Assembly: GCA_015067725.1 (NCBI GenBank)
Contig: SVLX01000012.1
Span: forward strand, 1-64,000
Length of the DNA stretch: 64,000 nucleotides
Direction: 5' to 3'
From: Oscillospiraceae bacterium
Lineage (GTDB): Bacteria; Bacillota; Clostridia; Oscillospirales; Oscillospiraceae
Every line of letters starts with the position of its first letter. The stretch's first letter is position 1. Made by a program: the position numbers and the translations under genes. Under the pieces are notes generated by a model that was not told the origin of the DNA, searched no databases, and was given only the letters and a program-made list of their open reading frames with translations. This document shows positions 5,866 to 57,055 of the stretch, in pieces.

Positions 5866-6027
5866 TTCCCCAAAGGGAAAACATCACTGCCGAAGGCAAC
5901 ATCACGCCGAAGCTCGCTCACTGGCGAAGCCCCCTCCCCAATAAAATCACTTCCCAAAGGGAAATTTCACTGCCGCAGGCAATTTCACAACGAAGTTATT
6001 TCACCGCCGAAGGCTACTTCACTATAC
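5866..6027 (+). repeat. Mini-hairpin array upstream of mnmE
   Basis: A run of about seven tiny palindromes separated by TCAC-type linkers: TTCCCCAAAGGGAA, TGCCGAAGGCA, a degenerate unit, TTCCCAAAGGGAA, TGCCGCAGGCA, AACGAAGTT and GCCGAAGGC. The array ends about 10 bp before the ribosome site of mnmE. Related arrays occur near 8950, 11060, 11215, 50390, 56930 and 59715. Confidence 0.85.
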
Positions 6028-11195: not shown

Positions 11196-11212
11196 CCAGT
11201 ATACCCATGCAA

Positions 11213-11307
11213 AAATTACCCACCGAAGGTGGATTTCACCCGCCAACGGCGGATTTCACATTCAGCACAAGCTGAATATTTCACTGTCACACCGACTGGT
11301 GTGACCA
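11213..11307 (+). repeat. Four-hairpin leader array before the GH13 gene
   Basis: Four unrelated palindromes with the same spacer ATTTCAC: CCACCGAAGGTGG, CCGCCAACGGCGG, ATTCAGCACAAGCTGAAT and GTCACACCGACTGGTGTGAC. Stems differ in sequence but all are perfect or nearly so, meaning structure is kept rather than sequence. The array stops 4 bp before the AAAGGAGG of the next gene and so would lie in its 5' leader. Confidence 0.85.
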
Positions 11308-48707: not shown

Positions 48708-50114
48708 ATGCAAACTTATACCGAAGAATTATTAGCCGCTTATGCAGACGTAGAAGGCGAAGAAGAAAAGGTCCGATATAAAGACAGTACCTATGACATC
48801 ATTTCCAAGGTCGCTTACTTAATCGGTGTCCCCACCAGAATCTTTGAAAATGAGCATGAGCCGCCAAAAATGGAAGTCCTGGAGCGGCTGGACAAAGACA
48901 AGAATTGCCGCATCATCCGTCACCTGTGCATTGTCCGCACCGCCATTGAGCGGGGGTTCAAGCACATTTCGGAGAAGATGAAGTATCAGTATCTCAGCAT
49001 TCTCTCCATGCCGGAGCATATTCCCCAGGAGTCTTTGCGGCAACTGGCTATGGACGGCGTGGAATTCTACAAGAAGTCCAGCACCAAGCTGAACCATCAC
49101 ATTATCGAAATTAACCGCATTATCTCCGACCGCATCAACAACTGCAAGCACGTTTTCCCCATCTGGATCAACTGGGACTATATCCGGGAAATGTTCATCA
49201 TGCCCAATGGTCTGACGGAGATCGGCACAAAATATGCCGCCAATACCTACTTTGAGAATCTGGATCTCTATCCCTATCAGGTCTATATCAACTGGGTCCC
49301 TCAGCCCAATGGCAATATCCTCTATAACGACAAGAAGTTTGTCACTCTGCTCTACCAGTGGCACAACGACTACTTCACCGATTACAGCCGGGTCTCCGAT
49401 GCCGGCGACTTCGTCAAGAGCAACATTTATGACTTCGTGGACGAGGCCGAGCGGGTGGTCATGGCGGTGGACTGCGAAAACTCCGACCCCTATCGGCTCT
49501 GCGCCACCCTGAAGGGCTTAGACCCGGACATTCTGCGGAAAATCCGGAAAATCATGCTCTTTGACGACGTGAATACGGTCAATGCCTGGCGAATTCTGGA
49601 TGGTTATACCAATATCCCCGTGGAGCACATCATGACCGAGCGGGTCAAGCAGAACAAGTCTCTGGTGGACATCAAGCTGACTGCCCAGACCTGTCTGGAG
49701 CATTACCGGAACAATGTGGACTCCTTCATTATCGTCTCCAGTGATTCCGACTATTGGGGGCTGATTTCCTCCATGCCCGATGCCCGGTTCCTGGTGATGA
49801 TCGAGCGGGAGAAGTGCGGCCCGGACATGAAGGCGGCCATGGCCAACAGCGGCATTTTCTATTGTTACATCGACGACTTCTACTCCGGCAACAGCGAAGA
49901 CATCAAGCAAAACGCCCTGTTCACGGAGCTGTACCGCTATCTGGACAATGCCCTCCACCTGAATGTCAATGAGATGCTGGAGTCGGCCATGAAAGCCACC
50001 CGCATCACCATGAACCCCGCAGAGCGGCAGCGGTTCTATGACAAGCATATCCGGCAGATGCAACTGGTCATTGATGAGGAGGGCAATGTGTCTATTGAGC
50101 TTAAGCGGAAATGA
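48708..50114 (+). CDS. NYN/PIN-like-domain protein
   Basis: 468 residues, soluble. The region from about 245 to 400 has the NYN/PIN nuclease layout: VVMAVDCENSD (first acidic site), DIKLTAQTCLEHYRN and IIVSSDSDYWGLIS (second and third acidic sites). The N-terminal 240 residues are helical with no known domain. This suggests an RNase that acts on structured RNA, with target unknown. AAGGAAG precedes the ATG at 48708. Expression may depend on read-through of the upstream terminator. Confidence 0.8.
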   Translation: MQTYTEELLAAYADVEGEEEKVRYKDSTYDIISKVAYLIGVPTRIFENEHEPPKMEVLERLDKDKNCRIIRHLCIVRTAIERGFKHISEKMKYQYLSILSMPEHIPQESLRQLAMDGVEFYKKSSTKLNHHIIEINRIISDRINNCKHVFPIWINWDYIREMFIMPNGLTEIGTKYAANTYFENLDLYPYQVYINWVPQPNGNILYNDKKFVTLLYQWHNDYFTDYSRVSDAGDFVKSNIYDFVDEAERVVMAVDCENSDPYRLCATLKGLDPDILRKIRKIMLFDDVNTVNAWRILDGYTNIPVEHIMTERVKQNKSLVDIKLTAQTCLEHYRNNVDSFIIVSSDSDYWGLISSMPDARFLVMIEREKCGPDMKAAMANSGIFYCYIDDFYSGNSEDIKQNALFTELYRYLDNALHLNVNEMLESAMKATRITMNPAERQRFYDKHIRQMQLVIDEEGNVSIELKRK

Positions 50115-50155
50115 GCGCCGATGCAGGCTGTCTCCGCACATCCGCAGGGAACTGC

Positions 50156-50375
50156 CTTGGCTGTTCCATGTTGCGCAATTGGGGGCTTGTGATAAATACA
50201 CACCCCCGTCCCCTGTAGCGCGCGGCATCCCTGACGCGCTTGGTGGGCTTTTGCGGATTCGCCGGAAGACTTTCGCTTGCTGGCAGGTTCTACTGCCGGT
50301 GCGACGGGGACGTCCACCCTGCAGGGGGTTCGCCGGAGGGTGGGTAGTTGCGGGGGGATAGGGACGTCGAGAGCA
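50156..50375 (+). repeat. Composite intergenic repeat, copy E (partial)
   Basis: Carries the left-end module (GTTGCGCAATTGGGGGC), CCCTGTAGCGCGCGGCATCC, GCGGATTCGCCGG and CGCTTGCTGGCAGGT in the order of copy A, without the long palindromic core. Confidence 0.85.
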
Positions 50376-50385
50376 ACCTCTCCGC

Positions 50386-50505
50386 AATATCACTTCCCGA
50401 AAGGAATCATCACTGCAAAGCAACATCACTGCCGAAGGCATCATCACAGCCGAAGGCGCATAACTGGCTAAGCCCTGTGTTCCCCACGAAGTTATTTCCC
50501 CACAG
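50386..50505 (+). repeat. Mini-hairpin array before srtB
   Basis: Units TTCCCGAAAGGAA, TGCAAAGCA, TGCCGAAGGCA, AGCCGAAGGC and ACGAAGT with TCATCAC-type linkers, directly upstream of the sortase gene. Confidence 0.8.
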
Positions 50506-50519
50506 AAAGAAGGCATCCC

Positions 50520-51338
50520 ATGAGACGTGCCATCCGTGCCATCGCCTTTCTCTTTTTCCTCGCCGTCTTCGGCGTGTCGCTGTGGAAGGTCATCGACATT
50601 CAGCGCGCCTATGAGACCGGCGAAAATACCTACTCCGACCTGCAGCAGTTTGTCCAGATTCCGGAGACACTGCCGGATTCCCCGGACACTTCGCCCAGCC
50701 CCATGAACCCCCTCCACGACAGACCGGAATTCTTCTATGACGACGATACCCCATGGCCCAATGTGGATTTTGATGCCCTCCGGGAAATCAATCCGGACAT
50801 TGTGGGCTGGATTTACATCGAAGGGACAGACGTGAATTACCCGGTGGTGCAGGGCGAGGACAACAAATACTACCTGAATCATCTGGTGGACGGCAAGTGG
50901 AACAGCTCCGGCTCTATCTTTCTGGATGCGGAATGTACCGATGTCTTCACCGACTGGCACAGCATCATTTATGGTCACCATATGCTCAATGATTCCATGT
51001 TCTCCGCTCTGATGGACTATAAGCAGCAGGAATTCTATGATGCCCACCCGGTTGCCCTGTATGTGACCCCGGAGCGGCGGGCGAAAATCGTGCTGTTCTC
51101 CGCCTATGTGGCCAAGCCCACGGAAAGCGCGTGGCAGCGGGAATTTGGGTTGCGGGAGTTTGACCGGTGGCTGGAGGAAATCGGAGGCAAGTCGCTGTTT
51201 GTTCCCAAATATACCCCCAACAGCAATGACCAAATCGTGACCCTGTCCACCTGCAGTTATGAATTCGACGGTGCCCGGTTCGTGGTGCATGGATTCTTGC
51301 TGGATTATACACAGGTGGTTGGGGCGCAGACACCATAA
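50520..51338 (+). CDS. srtB: Class B sortase
   Basis: 272 residues. N-terminal membrane anchor (IRAIAFLFFLAVFGVSLW). Sortase core with catalytic His in IIYGHHML (153/154), Cys245 in TLSTCSYEF and Arg253 in GARFVVHG. It links surface proteins to peptidoglycan at the outer membrane face. Class B is indicated by the N-terminal helices and TLSTC. No sortase substrate gene is nearby, so it is a housekeeping or pilus-independent enzyme here. AAAGAAGG precedes the ATG. Confidence 0.93.
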   Translation: MRRAIRAIAFLFFLAVFGVSLWKVIDIQRAYETGENTYSDLQQFVQIPETLPDSPDTSPSPMNPLHDRPEFFYDDDTPWPNVDFDALREINPDIVGWIYIEGTDVNYPVVQGEDNKYYLNHLVDGKWNSSGSIFLDAECTDVFTDWHSIIYGHHMLNDSMFSALMDYKQQEFYDAHPVALYVTPERRAKIVLFSAYVAKPTESAWQREFGLREFDRWLEEIGGKSLFVPKYTPNSNDQIVTLSTCSYEFDGARFVVHGFLLDYTQVVGAQTP

Positions 51339-51386
51339 TTCTGCCCCGCCAACCCTGCGGGAGCCATATCCTTCCGGCTACGGCAG

Positions 51387-52187
51387 TCAATCACATGGCA
51401 CATCTCCCAGAGCCATCCCCTTGCGCCGCTCCAGCCATGCAGACCACAGCCGCTGTACATTTTCCCCGTCAGCGGAGGTAAAGGACGGATTCCGGTATCT
51501 CCACCGGGTACACAGCTCCACCAGTGGCAAAAAGGCATAGCCCGGCACATCCCTGCCCAGTTTTTCCGCCACCGCCGCTTTGTCCGAACAGCTCCTGCCT
51601 GTGGCGAAATAGTAGTCCAGCAACGCCCTGACCAGCACAGACTGGACAATCAGTCGCATTGGCAGGTCTTCCGGGGCAATGGGCTGAAATCCGGTCTGCT
51701 CCTGTATGGCTTCTGACCAGCGGCGCTCCTCCTCTTTCCCCGCCAGCACGTCTTCCCGGCTGGGATAGTCGATGGTGTCCAGAATGTCCCGCCCCCAGAC
51801 GGTCTGACCGGAGTCCTTCATCCGCATAATCTCAATGGGCAACTCTGCATAATCTTTGTACACCACCTGCCCGGCTAACCCCTTGGGATAGGGGGAAAAC
51901 AAGTCCCTGTACCGATAAACACAGCGGGAAATGGGAATATCCCGCCCGGTGGTCGCTTCTGTCCGGGCAATCGCCTCCAGCACCTGTTGCCGGCTTTCCT
52001 CCGGCGCGTCGTCCCGGAGAATGTGAATCAGGTCAATATCACTGCCGTCATCGCCGGTATAACTGCCGGTGGTCAGACTGCCCACCAAAACCACAGACAG
52101 CAGTCCCAGCTCCGGTTTCTCCTCCAGTGCATTCAGGTGAAGCCGGAGAATCTGTCGGGCTCTGGCTTCGGATTTGTTTTTCTCCAT
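51387..52187 (-). CDS. Pol-beta-type nucleotidyltransferase
   Basis: 266 residues. Motif GSLTTGSYTGDDGSDIDLIH is the GS...DxD metal site of pol-beta nucleotidyltransferases; a helical C-terminal domain follows, as in aminoglycoside nucleotidyltransferases. It would transfer a nucleotide to a small molecule or protein; the acceptor is unknown, and resistance is not implied. AAGGAAG before the ATG; promoter at 52236-52264. Confidence 0.82.
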   Translation of the reverse strand: MEKNKSEARARQILRLHLNALEEKPELGLLSVVLVGSLTTGSYTGDDGSDIDLIHILRDDAPEESRQQVLEAIARTEATTGRDIPISRCVYRYRDLFSPYPKGLAGQVVYKDYAELPIEIMRMKDSGQTVWGRDILDTIDYPSREDVLAGKEEERRWSEAIQEQTGFQPIAPEDLPMRLIVQSVLVRALLDYYFATGRSCSDKAAVAEKLGRDVPGYAFLPLVELCTRWRYRNPSFTSADGENVQRLWSAWLERRKGMALGDVPCD

Positions 52188-52235
52188 GATGTTCTTCCTT
52201 TCTGTTCGTCCGTTCCGCGCATGAGAATCAGCGTT

Positions 52236-52264
52236 ATTCTAGCGGGCGAAAAAGGAAAGAACAA
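52236..52264 (-). promoter_or_regulatory. Promoter of the nucleotidyltransferase gene
   Basis: Minus strand TTGTTC (52264-52259), 17-bp spacer, TAGAAT (52241-52236). It is back to back with a rightward promoter at 52268. Confidence 0.65.
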
Positions 52265-52267
52265 GCC

Positions 52268-52296
52268 TTGTTTTTTGGATGGTTTTCTGCTATAAT
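52268..52296 (+). promoter_or_regulatory. Distal promoter upstream of the second fic gene
   Basis: TTGTTT (52268-52273), 17-bp spacer, TATAAT (52291-52296), followed at once by a terminator. Confidence 0.7.
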
Positions 52297-52303
52297 ATCA
52301 CTA

Positions 52304-52336
52304 AGGTCATGGGGTACTGCTCCTTGACCTGTTTTT
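52304..52336 (+). terminator. Early terminator directly after a promoter
   Basis: AGGTCATGG (52304-52312) with CCTTGACCT (52322-52330), one mismatch, then GTTTTT. The stem starts at about +1 of the transcript. Confidence 0.7.
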
Positions 52337-52400
52337 CTGCCCGCACCCCCGCTTTTCTGTGCGTAATCCGGAGAAAAACAGACAGAAAAAGAGCCAGCCC

Positions 52401-52430
52401 TTGATTTTTCTGCACATCTTATGGTAAACT
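52401..52430 (+). promoter_or_regulatory. Proximal promoter of the second fic gene
   Basis: TTGATT (52401-52406), 18-bp spacer, TAAACT (52425-52430). Confidence 0.5.
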
Positions 52431-52453
52431 ATATGCAAAAAGGAGGCCGACCC

Positions 52454-53515
52454 ATGAGAATGTTTGATTATTCTTTTTTGCGAAACGGACTGCTCCCGGC
52501 CGGATTGGTGAACCTGGTTTCCGGCATTGTCCAGCTCAAAACCACGGTAGGATTCCGGAAAGTAGACCGCAGGCAGGAATTCGCCGCCCTGGAATCTGTG
52601 GCGCGTATCCAGTCCATAAAAAGTTCCAATGCCATTGCGGGTATTGTCACCGGCGACCAACGGATTGCCGACATCGTCAACGGCAACAGCGCTCCCCTGA
52701 ACCGCAACGAAGCCGAAATTGCCGGATACCGGGATGCGCTGAACCTGATTCATCTGTGCCATGACGAATTCGACTTCCGGGAGCAGGATGTCCGCAAATT
52801 CCATGCCATAATGCTGTCCTTTGCCGGATATGACCATGGCGGGCAGTATAAAACCGAGGACAATGTGATTCCGGAGGTGGATGCCGACGGCAGCCGGCGG
52901 GTACGATTCTGTCCCACGCCTGCCGCCGAGACGAAGGCGGCTATGGAGCAGCTCACCTTGGCCTATCTGGTGGCCAGAGACGACAGTGCCATTCACCCGC
53001 TTTTGCTGATTCCCTGTGTGATTCTGGACTTTTTGTGTGTCCACCCCTTCAAAGACGGAAACAATCGGTTAGCCCGGCTGCTGTCCCTGCTTTTGCTCTG
53101 CAAAAATGGCTATGACGTGGGCAAATATATCTCCTTCGAGGAGCGGATCAACCGGTATCAGGAGTTGTTCAACGGTGCCCTGCAACGTTCTTCCCGGGAT
53201 TGGGCGCAGGGTGGGAATGATTACTTCCCCTTTGTGGAGAATTTCCTGACGATACTGCATATCTGTTACCTGGAGTTGGAGCAAGAGTTCTCCGTGGTGA
53301 GTGGCCGGGGAATCACCAAGAGAGCCCAGATTGAAGCCACCGTCCGCAACAGTCTGACCCCTTTGTCCAAAGCGGAGATTTGCCGGCTTCTGCCGGATGC
53401 GAGCCCCTCCACTGTAGAAGCTGTACTCGGTGCCATGGTGCGCTCAGGGATGGCCAAAAAGCTGGGGCAGGGACGTTCCTGCCGATACATCGCCGGAGAT
53501 GGCAATCTCCCCTAA
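52454..53515 (+). CDS. Fic-domain protein with altered inhibitory motif
   Basis: 353 residues, colinear with the Fic protein at 29274-30320. FIC motif HPFKDGNNRLAR (197-208) has Asn where GNG is usual. The inhibitory motif reads SNAIAG (58-63): alanine replaces the glutamate that normally blocks ATP binding. C-terminal winged helix (LLPDASPSTVEAVLGAM). The enzyme may be constitutively active as an AMPylase, or the double change may mark another nucleotide or inactive state. AAGGAGG before the ATG at 52454. Confidence 0.9.
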   Translation: MRMFDYSFLRNGLLPAGLVNLVSGIVQLKTTVGFRKVDRRQEFAALESVARIQSIKSSNAIAGIVTGDQRIADIVNGNSAPLNRNEAEIAGYRDALNLIHLCHDEFDFREQDVRKFHAIMLSFAGYDHGGQYKTEDNVIPEVDADGSRRVRFCPTPAAETKAAMEQLTLAYLVARDDSAIHPLLLIPCVILDFLCVHPFKDGNNRLARLLSLLLLCKNGYDVGKYISFEERINRYQELFNGALQRSSRDWAQGGNDYFPFVENFLTILHICYLELEQEFSVVSGRGITKRAQIEATVRNSLTPLSKAEICRLLPDASPSTVEAVLGAMVRSGMAKKLGQGRSCRYIAGDGNLP

Positions 53516-53718
53516 AATCAGAAATGACCCTTGACCGCCGCATCTTACGATGACTGAGCAGCCAAGGGTCATTTCTGTGAATTCTTGATATCTAACATCC
53601 TTGGTTAACCTCTCTTTCTACGGATTTGGTCTCTGCATAACCCCGAGTTTTGTGAATCCAGCCTCTGCGTCGCCGGACTCTGAAGGCGCTCACCAGGAGG
53701 AGGAGTGAGTTCCTTTGT
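53515..53718 (-). ncRNA. Non-coding RNA of about 200 nt
   Basis: A perfect promoter (53725-53753) and a strong terminator (AGAAATGACCCTTG arms, 53520-53533 and 53563-53576, then ATTTT on the minus strand) bound a region with no open frame of note. Internal folds include CTCAC...GTGAG (about 53707-53687), GTCCGGC...GCTGGAT with all seven pairs (53675-53653) and GGATT...AATCC. Length and single-gene layout recall 6S, raiA or similar structured RNAs, but I cannot match it to a family by eye. Confidence 0.7.
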
Positions 53719-53724
53719 GGCTAT

Positions 53725-53753
53725 AGTATAGCATAGCTCATTGGGGTTGTCAA
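53725..53753 (-). promoter_or_regulatory. Promoter of the 200-nt RNA
   Basis: Minus strand TTGACA (53753-53748), 17 bp, TATACT (53730-53725). Confidence 0.85.
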
Positions 53754-53828
53754 TCCGGAATACTGCACAAAATTACCTCAGAAAAGTTGTTAAAAGGGGA
53801 GAAATATCTCTGCTAACGCAGAAAATCG

Positions 53829-53857
53829 TTGACAGAAGCAGTGTGGTGTGTTATACT
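53829..53857 (+). promoter_or_regulatory. Promoter of the RACo-like gene
   Basis: TTGACA (53829-53834), 17 bp, TATACT (53852-53857). Confidence 0.8.
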
Positions 53858-53867
53858 TAGAATGTTG

Positions 53868-53893
53868 GGCCGGTCAGTTGATCGGCCTTTTCT
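53868..53893 (+). terminator. Early terminator directly after a promoter
   Basis: GGCCGGTC (53868-53875) with GATCGGCC (53880-53887), then TTTTCT. It starts about four bases after the expected transcript start and 70 bp before the gene, so it acts as an attenuator or makes a tiny RNA. Confidence 0.7.
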
Positions 53894-53963
53894 GCCCTCA
53901 TTTATGGAGGAAAAGATTGCACCCAACGGATAAATTATCTTGAAATAAAGGACAGAACCGCCC

Positions 53964-55508
53964 ATGAAAACCTTCAGCGAAAAAGTCTATCTGACCATTG
54001 CTCCCCCCACCGAGGACGACTCCCTCAGTGACCAACAGCGCATCTGTGAGGCACTGTCTCAACGGGGGTATGACAAAGTAAAAATTCCCCTCCCCCTTCT
54101 GCGCCGCCTATACCCCCAATGCCGGGACTGGGGCTACCGGTTCACCGCAACCTTAGTCTACCGGGAGGAGGACTGGCTCATGACCGCCATCGAGCCGGGA
54201 GATACCACCGCCACCCATTATGGTCTGGCCATGGACTATGGCTCCACCACCATGCTGATGCAATTGGTGGACCTGACCAGCGGGGCGGTCATTGCCCAGG
54301 CCCGGGAGATGAACGGACAAATCCGCTATGGCACAGACATTCTGACCCGCATCACCTATACCATGGAAGACCCCCAACATCCGGAGGATCTGCGCCGTGT
54401 CACCGCGGAGACCATCTCCCTGCTTCTGGACGACCTGACCGAAGAATCCGGAATCGATGCCCGGCAGTGCCCGGTGCTGATTGTCTCCGGCAACACCACC
54501 ATGATTCACTTCCTGCTGAAGCTCAATGCATGGACGGTTTTTGCCTCCCCCTTCGCCCCGGTGACCAATGCCCCGGGGTGGTTTGACGGCGGGGAGCTGG
54601 GGCTGGATTTCCCCGGGGTGGTCTATATCATCCCCTCTGCCTCCAACTATATCGGCGGCGACATCGTCAGCGGGCTTCTGGTACTGGGCATGGAAAAGAG
54701 CGAGGGCATCCGGCTGTTCTTCGACATCGGCACCAATGGGGAACTGGTCATCGGCAACCGGGAGTGGATTATGGGCGGCGCAGGCGCGGCAGGTCCGGCA
54801 CTTGAGGGCTACATCAGCCGCTATGGCATTCAGGCACAAGATGGCGCAATCGATACCGTGACCATTAACGGCGCTTCCCTGCGCTTTACCACCATCGGCA
54901 ACCAAAAGCCGGTGGGCATTTGTGGCTCAGGCATCATTGATTTGCTGGCGCAAATGCGGCTCAATGGCTGGATTGATATTGCCGGGCAATTAGACCCCGC
55001 CGCCTCAGACCGGATTGTCTATCTGGAGGAGGAGGCGCAATATGTGGCGGTCTATGCCCATAGAGAGGAATCCGGCATTGGTCAGCCCCTGTACTTCTCC
55101 CAGACGGATATTGATCAGTATCTGGACACCAAGGCGGCGGCCTATACCATGATTCAGTGTCTGCTGGAGACGGCGGGTTGCGGCATTGCGGACATTGCGG
55201 ACATTTGTCTCTCCGGCTCTTTCAGTGCCCACTCGGATTTGGAGTCGGCCATTACCATCGGCATCTTCCCGGATTTGCCCCGGGAGAAATACAGCCTCAT
55301 CGCCAATGCCTCTCTGGATGGGGCAAGGACACTGCTGTTAAACCGGGAGCGGATGGCCGACATTCACCGCTACGCCGAGACCATGTACTGTGTCCAGTTC
55401 GCCTCTGTCCCCGATTTTCTGGTTCGGATGCAGGCGGCCAAGTTCATTCCCCACACGGACATGGACACATTCCCCAGCATACAGAAGAAACTAACCCACC
55501 AAAACTGA
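53964..55508 (+). CDS. RACo-like ASKHA protein (DUF4445) without ferredoxin domain
   Basis: 514 residues. ASKHA fold: LAMDYGSTTMLMQLVDL (phosphate-1), LIVSGNTTMIHFLL, FFDIGTNGELVIGN and GAGAAGPALEG, PVGICGSGIIDLLAQM. It matches the C-terminal part of reductive activators of corrinoid Fe-S proteins (RACo, RamA). The N-terminal 2Fe-2S domain of RACo is replaced by about 80 residues without its cysteine pattern. It may bind ATP and act on a corrinoid protein not encoded here. GGACAG before the ATG is a weak ribosome site. Confidence 0.83.
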   Translation: MKTFSEKVYLTIAPPTEDDSLSDQQRICEALSQRGYDKVKIPLPLLRRLYPQCRDWGYRFTATLVYREEDWLMTAIEPGDTTATHYGLAMDYGSTTMLMQLVDLTSGAVIAQAREMNGQIRYGTDILTRITYTMEDPQHPEDLRRVTAETISLLLDDLTEESGIDARQCPVLIVSGNTTMIHFLLKLNAWTVFASPFAPVTNAPGWFDGGELGLDFPGVVYIIPSASNYIGGDIVSGLLVLGMEKSEGIRLFFDIGTNGELVIGNREWIMGGAGAAGPALEGYISRYGIQAQDGAIDTVTINGASLRFTTIGNQKPVGICGSGIIDLLAQMRLNGWIDIAGQLDPAASDRIVYLEEEAQYVAVYAHREESGIGQPLYFSQTDIDQYLDTKAAAYTMIQCLLETAGCGIADIADICLSGSFSAHSDLESAITIGIFPDLPREKYSLIANASLDGARTLLLNRERMADIHRYAETMYCVQFASVPDFLVRMQAAKFIPHTDMDTFPSIQKKLTHQN

Positions 55509-55584
55509 CCCGCACACATCCCAAAATCCCCCCAAAAAACAGGATAACCATCAGAAAACCAAGAACCGGAAAGGAAGACCAGTT

Positions 55585-56403
55585 ATGCGTCAATCCATTC
55601 AGGACATCATCCGCAGTCGGCGGAGCGTCAGAACCTACAACCCCAAGCCCCTGGCCCAAGAGGACCGGCAAAAACTGGAAGCCTTCCTCCCAACCGCAGA
55701 CAATCCCTATGGTCTGGCGGTGGAGTTCCGTTTTCTGGAGAAGAAGACGCACGGACTTCACTGCCCGGTGACGGTGGGTGATGCGCTCTATATTGGCGCA
55801 AAGGCCGCATTGACCCCCCACATGGAGGCGGCTGTGGGCTACAGCTTTGAGCGACTGGTGCTGTTTGCGGAATCCTTGGGGCTGGGCACGGTGATTTTGG
55901 GCGGCACCATGAACCGTCCTGCCTTTGAGAAAGCCATGGCGCTGAACGATGGCGAGGTCATGCCGCTGGCCACACCCATTGGCTATCCGGCAGAGAAAAT
56001 GTCCCTCCGGGAGACGATGATGCGCAAGGGAGTTCAGGCGGATATGCGAATGGACTTCCGGAAGCTGTTCTTTGACGATACATTTGACCGCCCCCTGACC
56101 ATGGAGCGGGCGGGGATTTTCGCCCAGCCGCTGGAGATGGTGCGGCTTGCTCCCTCTGCGGTAAACCGCCAGCCATGGCGGGTGCTGGTGCGGGATGGAT
56201 TTGCCCACTTCTACGAAAAGCCCAGCAAAGGTATGGGCGGTGGAGCATGGGATATCCAGAAAATTGATGTAGGCATTGCCATGGCCCATTTTGCCCTGAC
56301 CCTGGAGGAACAGGGATTCACGCCCCGGTTCAGGACAGACGAGCCGCAAACGGCAGGAGATGCCGAGGGCATGGTGTATATCGGGTCTTATGGGGTGGAG
56401 TAA
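55585..56403 (+). CDS. Nitroreductase-family protein (TM1586-type)
   Basis: 272 residues. Starts with IRSRRSVRTYNPKPL, the nitroreductase FMN-site arginines, and has two half-domains as in TM1586-like proteins, with LAPSAVNRQPWRVLV in the second half (FMN/dimer segment). FMN-dependent oxidoreductase using NAD(P)H; substrate unknown. It follows the RACo-like gene by 76 bp and may be cotranscribed. GGAAAGGAAG lies upstream. Confidence 0.9.
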   Translation: MRQSIQDIIRSRRSVRTYNPKPLAQEDRQKLEAFLPTADNPYGLAVEFRFLEKKTHGLHCPVTVGDALYIGAKAALTPHMEAAVGYSFERLVLFAESLGLGTVILGGTMNRPAFEKAMALNDGEVMPLATPIGYPAEKMSLRETMMRKGVQADMRMDFRKLFFDDTFDRPLTMERAGIFAQPLEMVRLAPSAVNRQPWRVLVRDGFAHFYEKPSKGMGGGAWDIQKIDVGIAMAHFALTLEEQGFTPRFRTDEPQTAGDAEGMVYIGSYGVE

Positions 56404-56460
56404 GGAAACGGCGACCGGCAAACGCAGGATTTCCCTGATTGTCTGTAGGGAGCGGTCTTG

Positions 56461-56925
56461 ACCGTTCCGTGTTCCGCAACCGGGGACTGTCGGTGAGCAC
56501 ACCGCATCTGCAACACCCGCCTGCGCCCGGAGAGCTTCTTGCCTCTCCCTTTGGGAGAGGTGGGACGGCAAAGCCGTGTCGGAGAGGGCATTTGGCGGAT
56601 TCGCCGGGAGGCTGTCAGTTGCTGGCTGGTTCTGCTGCAACTCCCTCCGCCCCTTCGGGGCACCTCCCTCGGTGAGGGAGGCATTGATTGGGGAGGTTTT
56701 GCGGATTCGCCGGGGGGTTGGTGGTTACTGTTAGCCGCTACTGCGCCCTCTCAGCCGCTGCGGCGGCAGCTCCCCCAGCGGGGGAGCCAAGGGTGGTGCG
56801 GATTCGCCGGAGGGTTGGTGGTTACTGGTAGGTTCTACCGCCGGGCGGGTCATGACCCGCCCCTACGACCCTGTGATAAACGGTGTGCGGATTCGCCGTA
56901 AGATAACCGGGCAACCTCCCCCACA
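56461..56925. repeat. Composite intergenic repeat, copy F (several modules)
   Basis: Four relatives of GCGGATTCGCCGG (about 56593, 56701, 56798, 56887), three different palindromic cores (including CCGCCCCTTCGGGGCACCTCC and GCAGCTCCCCCAGCGGGGGA), and TGTTCCGCAACCGGGGACT at the left end. Cores differ while junction words are kept, as if modules were exchanged. Confidence 0.85.
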
Positions 56926-56926
56926 A

Positions 56927-57055
56927 AATCACTTCCCCGCAGGGGAATCATCACTGCGAAGCATCATAACTGCGAAGCATCATAACTGCCGAAGGCATCA
57001 TAACTGCCGAAGGCATCATAACTGCCGAAGGCATCATAACTGCCAAAGGCAAAAA
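56927..57055 (+). repeat. Mini-hairpin array of seven units
   Basis: TTCCCCGCAGGGGAA, TGCGAAGCA twice, TGCCGAAGGCA three times and TGCCAAAGGCA, all spaced by TCATAAC or TCATCAC. Directly before the CsoR-type gene promoter. Confidence 0.9.

Follow-up and report, generated by a model that had tools for sequence, protein, structure and literature searches.

A dispersed family of short genes in Oscillospiraceae and related families, with a conserved 8–11-codon reading frame that ends inside the terminator stem

At 53513–53719, the minus strand of the window, by which we mean the whole 64,000-nt stretch that was analysed (Oscillospiraceae bacterium, contig SVLX01000012.1), is, as judged from its sequence, a real, independently transcribed small gene with a predicted RNA product. 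The features of this gene, together with its two neighbours, are the following.

53964–55508, plus strand: divergent RACo-like gene (Pfam RACo_C_ter, E 1.9e-79); context, outside the system.
53757–53772, minus strand: operator-like box TTTTGTGCAGTATTCC, located just ahead of the −35 element; family consensus TTTTGTAcAAtATTCC, from the promoter logo of 105 distinct copies.
53725–53753, minus strand: sigma-70-type promoter TTGACA-17-TATACT with an extended −10, from the promoter scan.
53513–53719, minus strand: predicted transcript of ~205 nt, with the start placed ~6–7 nt past the −10 element and the end at the U-run.
53701–53719, minus strand: degenerate 5′ module CACAAAGGAACTCACTCC, with the purine-rich tract kept and the ATG mini-ORF lost (family form ACACAAAGAGGTGATACCAATG plus 2–4 codons), from copy comparison.
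53689–53709, minus strand: tentative small hairpin CUCAC...GUGAG of the body, from the body fold (body z −0.8).
53654–53680, minus strand: predicted stem GAGUCCGG/CUGGAUUC, a tentative counterpart, by eye, of the family stem UUCCG...CGGAA.
53609–53619, minus strand: extended Shine-Dalgarno site AGAAAG-A-GAGG of the nano-ORF; its GAAA and GAGG columns are invariant in 109 aligned copies.
53569–53598, minus strand: nano-ORF MLDIKNSQK-stop, nine codons and UGA, from ORF comparison across copies.
53514–53577, minus strand: intrinsic terminator, a 21-bp stem and U-run (arms 53577–53557 and 53539–53519), with the UGA stop (53571–53569) in the 5′ arm.
52421–53515, plus strand: convergent fic gene (Pfam Fic, E 1.2e-12); context, outside the system.

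The first-pass annotation had described a ~200-nt RNA gene with clear limits, set by a promoter and a terminator, between the fic and RACo-like genes. The predicted promoter and intrinsic terminator agree with that description, and both neighbours were confirmed by Pfam. The promoter TTGACA-17-TATACT was found at 53753–53725; it matched 11 of the 12 consensus positions, since its −10 element reads TATACT, and is hence not the perfect promoter that had been announced. Scanning 50000–57000 returned six sites with at least 9/12 (shuffle mean 3.9), so weak promoter sites are common; only two sites reached 11/12. The terminator was also present, with a stem longer than the 14 bp first given (21 bp at 53577–53519, followed by AUUUU); the consensus terminator scan missed this hairpin because its loop limit of 3–8 nt excludes it. 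The statement that the gene is antisense to nothing was nearly right, except that the terminal U-run of the RNA (53517–53514) overlaps the fic stop codon (53513–53515). The whole ~205-nt RNA folded better than all 200 shuffles (z = −4.4). The portion 5′ of the 3′ core was unexceptional (z = −0.8), and the several good internal stems of the first-pass annotation are thus not supported beyond chance in the window copy. On the plus strand, we also observed a second TTGACA-17-TATACT promoter (53829–53892), divergent to the RNA gene and directly followed by the hairpin GGCCGGTCAGTTGATCGGCC and TTTT; this may represent an attenuator ahead of RACo.

The RNA did not correspond to the known families that had been suggested for it. 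The Rfam scan that had been proposed, run with Rfam 15 on 53400–53960, gave no family at its gathering score; the highest score below threshold, 26.6 of 90 bits, belonged to a hairpin model of microRNA type. 6S RNA (RF00013) is likewise a stand-alone RNA gene of ~200 nt in a gut Firmicute, but it had no match in the window, and the genome's own 6S RNA was located elsewhere (C76:41479–41680, 59.4 bits, above the cut-off). The raiA RNA (RF03072) matched neither in the window nor in the rest of its genome, in a search whose control genomes were also silent. Two Gut-1 RNAs (RF01706) lie ~5 kb apart on the minus strand of the window, at 11210–11286 and 5939–6006 (63.4 and 50.5 bits); compared with the gene, they were unrelated in sequence and structure. 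A 33-aa GTG frame at 53693–53592 was set aside, as it has no Shine-Dalgarno site.

No convincing frame had been reported in the gene. We found a nine-codon ORF behind the strong Shine-Dalgarno site AGAAAGAGAGG, and its counterparts were recognised in the other copies of the family. Each aligned copy contained an extended Shine-Dalgarno site AGAAAG-N-GAGG, and then ATG. An in-frame stop at the foot of the terminator stem closed an ORF of 8–9 codons (longer where an upstream in-frame ATG was present) in 152 of the 153 distinct copies of a set that was partly pattern-chosen, with the ATG required and the ORF start fixed, and the stop left free. The same held for 58 of 59 additional copies from other genera or families, this distant set being the core matches that were fetched. 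Overall, an ORF of 8–11 codons was kept in 210 of 212 copies; the two exceptions, L048 and L251, had UGG and UGU in place of the stop. The gene thus holds a conserved small reading frame that had been overlooked, and it does not appear to be a purely noncoding RNA.

The peptides followed the consensus (M/MK/MT)LD[IFNT]K[SNT]E[QHE]K-stop and included MLDIKSEQK, MLDTKSEQK, MLDNKTEHK, MKLDIKTEEK, MTLDFKSEQK, MIEPKNSAK and MEPTFEKE, next to MLDIKNSQK in the window. The C-terminal residue was Lys in 121 of 152 genus copies, including that of the window. Stop usage was UGA 85, UAA 57 and UAG 10 in the genus set, and UAA 32, UGA 20 and UAG 6 in the set from other genera and families. Synonymous codons were exchanged at Leu (TTA/TTG/CTG/CTA/CTC), Ser (TCA/AGT), Lys (AAG/AAA) and Asp (GAT/GAC), and length changes within the ORF came as whole codons (8, 9 or 10), whereas the spacer between the Shine-Dalgarno site and the ATG varied by single bases. 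Taken together with the kept stop, these changes constitute a coding signal, and the nine-codon ORF is very probably translated. Within the genus, the first codons TTA GAT were more conserved at the nucleotide level than the peptide requires, which makes an additional role at the RNA level possible.

The covariation analysis that had also been proposed supported the terminator. Alignment A1 comprised 109 of the 153 copies, which had been thinned at 88% similarity and filtered by length (L048, counted among the 153, was not in A1), and showed double compensatory changes in 15 of its 17 consensus pairs, the stop-codon column included. The second base of the stop codon was paired in all 109 rows, by G-C in 61, A-U in 47 and G-U in one. 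From this geometry, a ribosome reaching the stop codon would have to open most of the terminator stem.

The suggestion that the RNA is widespread was borne out. A BLAST search with the region brought the count in this genome to two copies, the match to the second covering the 3′ half only, and gave copies in 31 of 60 relatives, nearly all of the same genus. The exact pattern matched at least 119 stretches in the collection of named species; most of the 80 matches listed came from metagenome assemblies assigned to Oscillospiraceae or Clostridia, Candidatus Faecousia among them. The covariance model of the 3′ core, R1, gave 108.6 bits in the window (53627–53510), the window copy being one of the model's 109 sequences, and with a limit of E 1e-5 it matched 30 of the 37 genomes of the genus. 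In the order-wide sample, it matched 51 of 295 genomes at E 1e-3, and 45 of 295, representing 26 genera and 11 families, with more than 45 bits; six genomes with a top score under 40 bits (G175, G205, G258, G303, G333 and G046) are left out of the latter count. We must also note that R1 matches the reverse strand of the palindromic terminator with 20–48 bits, so the counts of 108/121 and 51/295 are upper bounds. In the phylum-wide sample, the window's own genome was the sole match among 398, which suggests a family limited to a single order of Clostridia (Oscillospiraceae and related families). We regard the existence of the family as practically certain. At five loci (L039, L058, L059, L060 and L061), copies were arranged in tandem (two or three) or as divergent pairs within 0.4–1.5 kb, sometimes with the MLD... 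and MIEP... subtypes mixed.

The promoter was conserved over 55 nt, as TTTTGTAcAAtATTCCaTCTTGaAAA, ~11 nt and TGTGnTATntTATAG in the logo of 105 distinct copies, with a TTTTGTACAATATTCC box upstream. The 55-nt profile scored 50.1 bits in the window copy, against a median of 48.9 in known copies, and found no match of at least 13 bits in 368,173 bases of shuffled sequence. A sequence model of the promoter, R2, matched the window at 53712–53774 and, at 36 bits or more, found 65 sites in the 37 genus genomes; by hand count, the R1 core followed on the same strand in 62 of the 65, one of the others lay at a contig end, and two were without the core. Copies with a good 5′-module score were the basis of both R2 and the profile, and R2 includes the window copy, so these models favour complete copies. 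The two core-less matches preceded a small protein gene, with no Pfam family for the one examined. The promoter box, as TTTTGTGCAATWTTCC..TTG, was seen ahead of a small protein of ~100 aa in two relatives (L311 and L312) and, as a weaker match, ahead of a secreted subtilase gene in the window's own genome (L313, C9:4852–4909). As the box occurs before protein genes as well, it is probably a regulator site and not merely a part of this element, and the box shared by L311–L313 suggests a wider regulon.

Comparison of the copies established the common build of the family, i.e. a putative promoter with its upstream box, an intrinsic terminator, a conserved 3′ peptide module with the stop codon in the stem, usually a 5′ mini-ORF, and a variable middle. 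Our preferred reading, to which we give a probability of about 0.4 with the whole mechanistic chain included, is a stand-alone nano-peptide gene in a dispersed multi-copy family, which would be translated repeatedly, as has been demonstrated in vitro for mccA. An activator would bind the upstream box and switch the gene on. The short RNA would capture ribosomes by near-complete pairing with the 3′ tail of 16S rRNA, for which the tail of other Firmicutes was assumed; extended Shine-Dalgarno pairing is reported to direct initiation in a Firmicute (PMC13009471). The shortness of the ORF would let a ribosome terminate and restart while still on the RNA (reiterative translation), which would yield many formylated nonapeptides per RNA. 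As the stop codon lies inside the terminator stem, the stem would have to be opened there, elongation and termination would be slow, and the 3′ end would be held by ribosomes. The 5′ mini-ORF would likewise hold ribosomes at the 5′ end, and its main effect would be to protect the RNA against degradation. Most likely the functional product is the peptide itself or a nascent, slowly terminating form of it.

The closest precedent is mccA, the seven-codon gene of the microcin C precursor in Escherichia coli, which shares with the family an ORF of fewer than ten codons, a strong Shine-Dalgarno site, a short mRNA and an intrinsic terminator (PMC6495379). As described in that source, ORFs of 2–8 codons can be translated repeatedly with the ribosome staying on the mRNA, and reiteration falls with length, the fitted numbers of cycles in vitro for mccA variants being 71 for 7 codons, 30 for 11 and 6 for 15 (PMC6495379). 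A ribosome on the ORF is further reported to induce termination and the accumulation of a ribosome-bound short mRNA (PMC6495379). The mccA RNA is reported to be ribosome-bound and reiteratively translated (PMC6495379), as is proposed here for the family. Several differences should be pointed out. The mccA peptides mostly have seven residues and end in Asn; those of the family have 8–11 and mostly end in Lys. Moreover, mccA is found beside mccB, while clustering the neighbours of the 153 copies by family gave no mccB-like cluster and no other recurrent modification gene. The stop codon within the terminator stem, and the second mini-ORF of most copies, are seen in the family only.

The main competing explanation is a structured regulatory RNA, whose body and terminator would act by base pairing or protein binding, with the ORFs mainly recruiting ribosomes for stability or decay and the peptide as an accessory (a dual-function sRNA). 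Such a role would be consistent with the bodies between the two modules, which are A-rich on the RNA strand, often structured, and folded better than shuffles (mean z −2.1; below −2 in 35 of 74). About a third of the copies have a hairpin of the UCCC-GCUGAU-GGGA type 70–95 nt before the core, and a subset shares UUCCG...CGGAA(G)UGAUUC, with compensated, variable arms of the first hairpin; the excess of first hairpins over shuffles was modest (43% vs 22%). One very large RNA of the same family (L314, G014:C19, between 30990 and 29521) has a middle of 1,477 nt (38% A, 24% T) that folded to −389 kcal/mol, against −312 ± 16 for ten mononucleotide shuffles. On the other hand, no consensus emerged when 62 bodies were aligned globally, and since the first hairpin was also mis-registered by sequence alignment, the structure of the body counts as evidence for a subset of copies only. 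Body lengths range from 20 nt to 1.5 kb, and the 5′ ATG and the core were 21–657 nt apart in 110 copies and ~1.5 kb apart in L314. In L029, L044, L046, L048, L049 and L054, the 5′ ATG end is just 21–24 nt before the core. The body can thus be reduced to ~20 nt, so that the minimal unit is two translation modules and a terminator. The LhrC RNAs of Listeria resemble the family in having several dispersed copies per genome, each with its own promoter and terminator; LhrC, as far as described in the source consulted, are regulatory RNAs, while the most conserved part of the family is a coding module. With the peptide conserved through synonymous changes over 11 families, and a window body no better than shuffles, we consider a regulatory RNA unlikely.

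Lambda bar is a minigene with an ORF of 2–3 codons behind a strong Shine-Dalgarno site, and ORFs of this type are present in most copies of the family, although not in that of the window. In most copies, the 5′ end of the RNA has a Shine-Dalgarno site of its own, ACACAAAGAGGTGATACCAATG, with an ORF of 2–4 codons; the 5′ module scored at least 13 in 110 of 153 copies, and the ORF was complete in 93 of these 110. Among the 110 copies, the commonest mini-ORFs were MYR* (40), MI* (14), MYT* (7), MRR* (7) and MY* (6). MF*, MYR*, MNK*, MRK*, MEK* and others were found in other families. A toxic or regulatory minigene would slow translation whenever the promoter is induced, by peptidyl-tRNA drop-off that drains tRNA or peptidyl-tRNA hydrolase, and the MI*, MF* and MYR* ORFs behind near-perfect Shine-Dalgarno sites would suit such a function. 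Two-codon minigenes reportedly can act in cis, for one of them possibly through stabilisation of its mRNA, or be toxic through release of peptidyl-tRNA, with toxicity increasing with shorter length, strong Shine-Dalgarno sites and UAA stops (PMC8708949). The axe-txe mg2 minigene, with 2–4 codons behind a strong Shine-Dalgarno site, is comparable to the 5′ module. However, mg2 and the lambda bar minigenes lie ahead of or inside larger genes, while the mini-ORF of the family heads a stand-alone RNA in which the next ORF encodes a nine-residue peptide. A recognisable mini-ORF was absent from the window copy and from about a quarter of the genus copies, so the 5′ module is dispensable; the window copy and several others retained the promoter and the 3′ ORF. 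Moreover, the amino-acid conservation of the nine-codon ORF exceeds what drop-off alone would need, which makes the minigene explanation improbable.

An ORF overlapping a terminator is the classic attenuator layout. Here, ribosomes at the stop codon, which almost all copies have in the terminator's 5′ arm, would block the stem, and the state of translation would set read-through into downstream genes. Leader-peptide attenuators share with the family a short translated ORF overlapping an intrinsic terminator, but the family has no consistent downstream gene, and many copies, including that of the window, face a convergent gene. Downstream genes of the 153 copies were on the same strand in 74 and on the opposite strand in 68, with none called in 11; among those within 60 nt, 37 were opposite and 16 on the same strand. 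When the neighbours were clustered, no family recurred in more than seven copies, and no enzyme, receptor or target gene was linked to the copies. Mixed orientation and the lack of a conserved neighbour point to a dispersed stand-alone gene and not a cis leader. In the window, read-through would run into fic in antisense. An attenuator of a downstream gene was rejected on these grounds and is very improbable. Least probable of all is a non-autonomous mobile or selfish repeat that carries promoter, ORF and terminator by chance, as its multiple dispersed copies, tandem and divergent pairs, variable length, palindromic 3′ end and absence upstream of all five RACo orthologues (L184–L188, 65–66% identical) would allow, but against which stand selection on the peptide, the stop-codon pairing and the promoter, an upstream flank conserved between species in some copies (L029, L049 and L054), and no match in the viral contigs or phage records that were scanned.

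Returning to the repeatedly translated nano-peptide gene, we found no literature match for five peptide strings, and topic searches gave nothing that describes the family by title or abstract, subscription papers and preprints lying outside their scope. The family is apparently undescribed, and apparently no known kind of gene combines its features, single ones of which have precedents in mccA, minigenes and attenuators. We tentatively propose, at somewhat less than even odds, an undescribed gene class: a multi-copy regulated RNA with two nano-ORFs (2–4 and 8–11 codons) that would trap and recycle ribosomes, a structured part of variable length (20 nt to 1.5 kb) in between and a terminator that incorporates the stop codon. 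Such genes might supply an entire order of gut bacteria with a peptide signal or with ribosome-loaded RNA particles. If this is correct, genomes of common gut bacteria contain up to several copies each of a kind of gene that escapes annotation, since the encoded proteins have 2–11 residues and no family model exists for the RNA. Conservation across 11 families would then be possible for peptides of about nine residues, and a regulator that switches these genes on jointly would be expected. The family would also be a natural system for studying repeated translation by one ribosome and ribosomes within a terminator hairpin.

Direct tests are possible, since a cultured carrier exists. Vescimonas fastidiosa MM35 has an unannotated copy (77.8 bits) on pMM35_01, flanked by a TetR regulator and spoVAC. 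A phage or plasmid origin of the family was rejected, the exact pattern having no match in viral contigs or phage records and one plasmid record, that of the cultured relative. The MM35 copy, at ~65.2 kb of NZ_AP023416.1 (within locus L278, 61234–69278), lies on an 861-kb replicon, a linear plasmid according to its record, and hemW and an elongation factor G gene are also found there.
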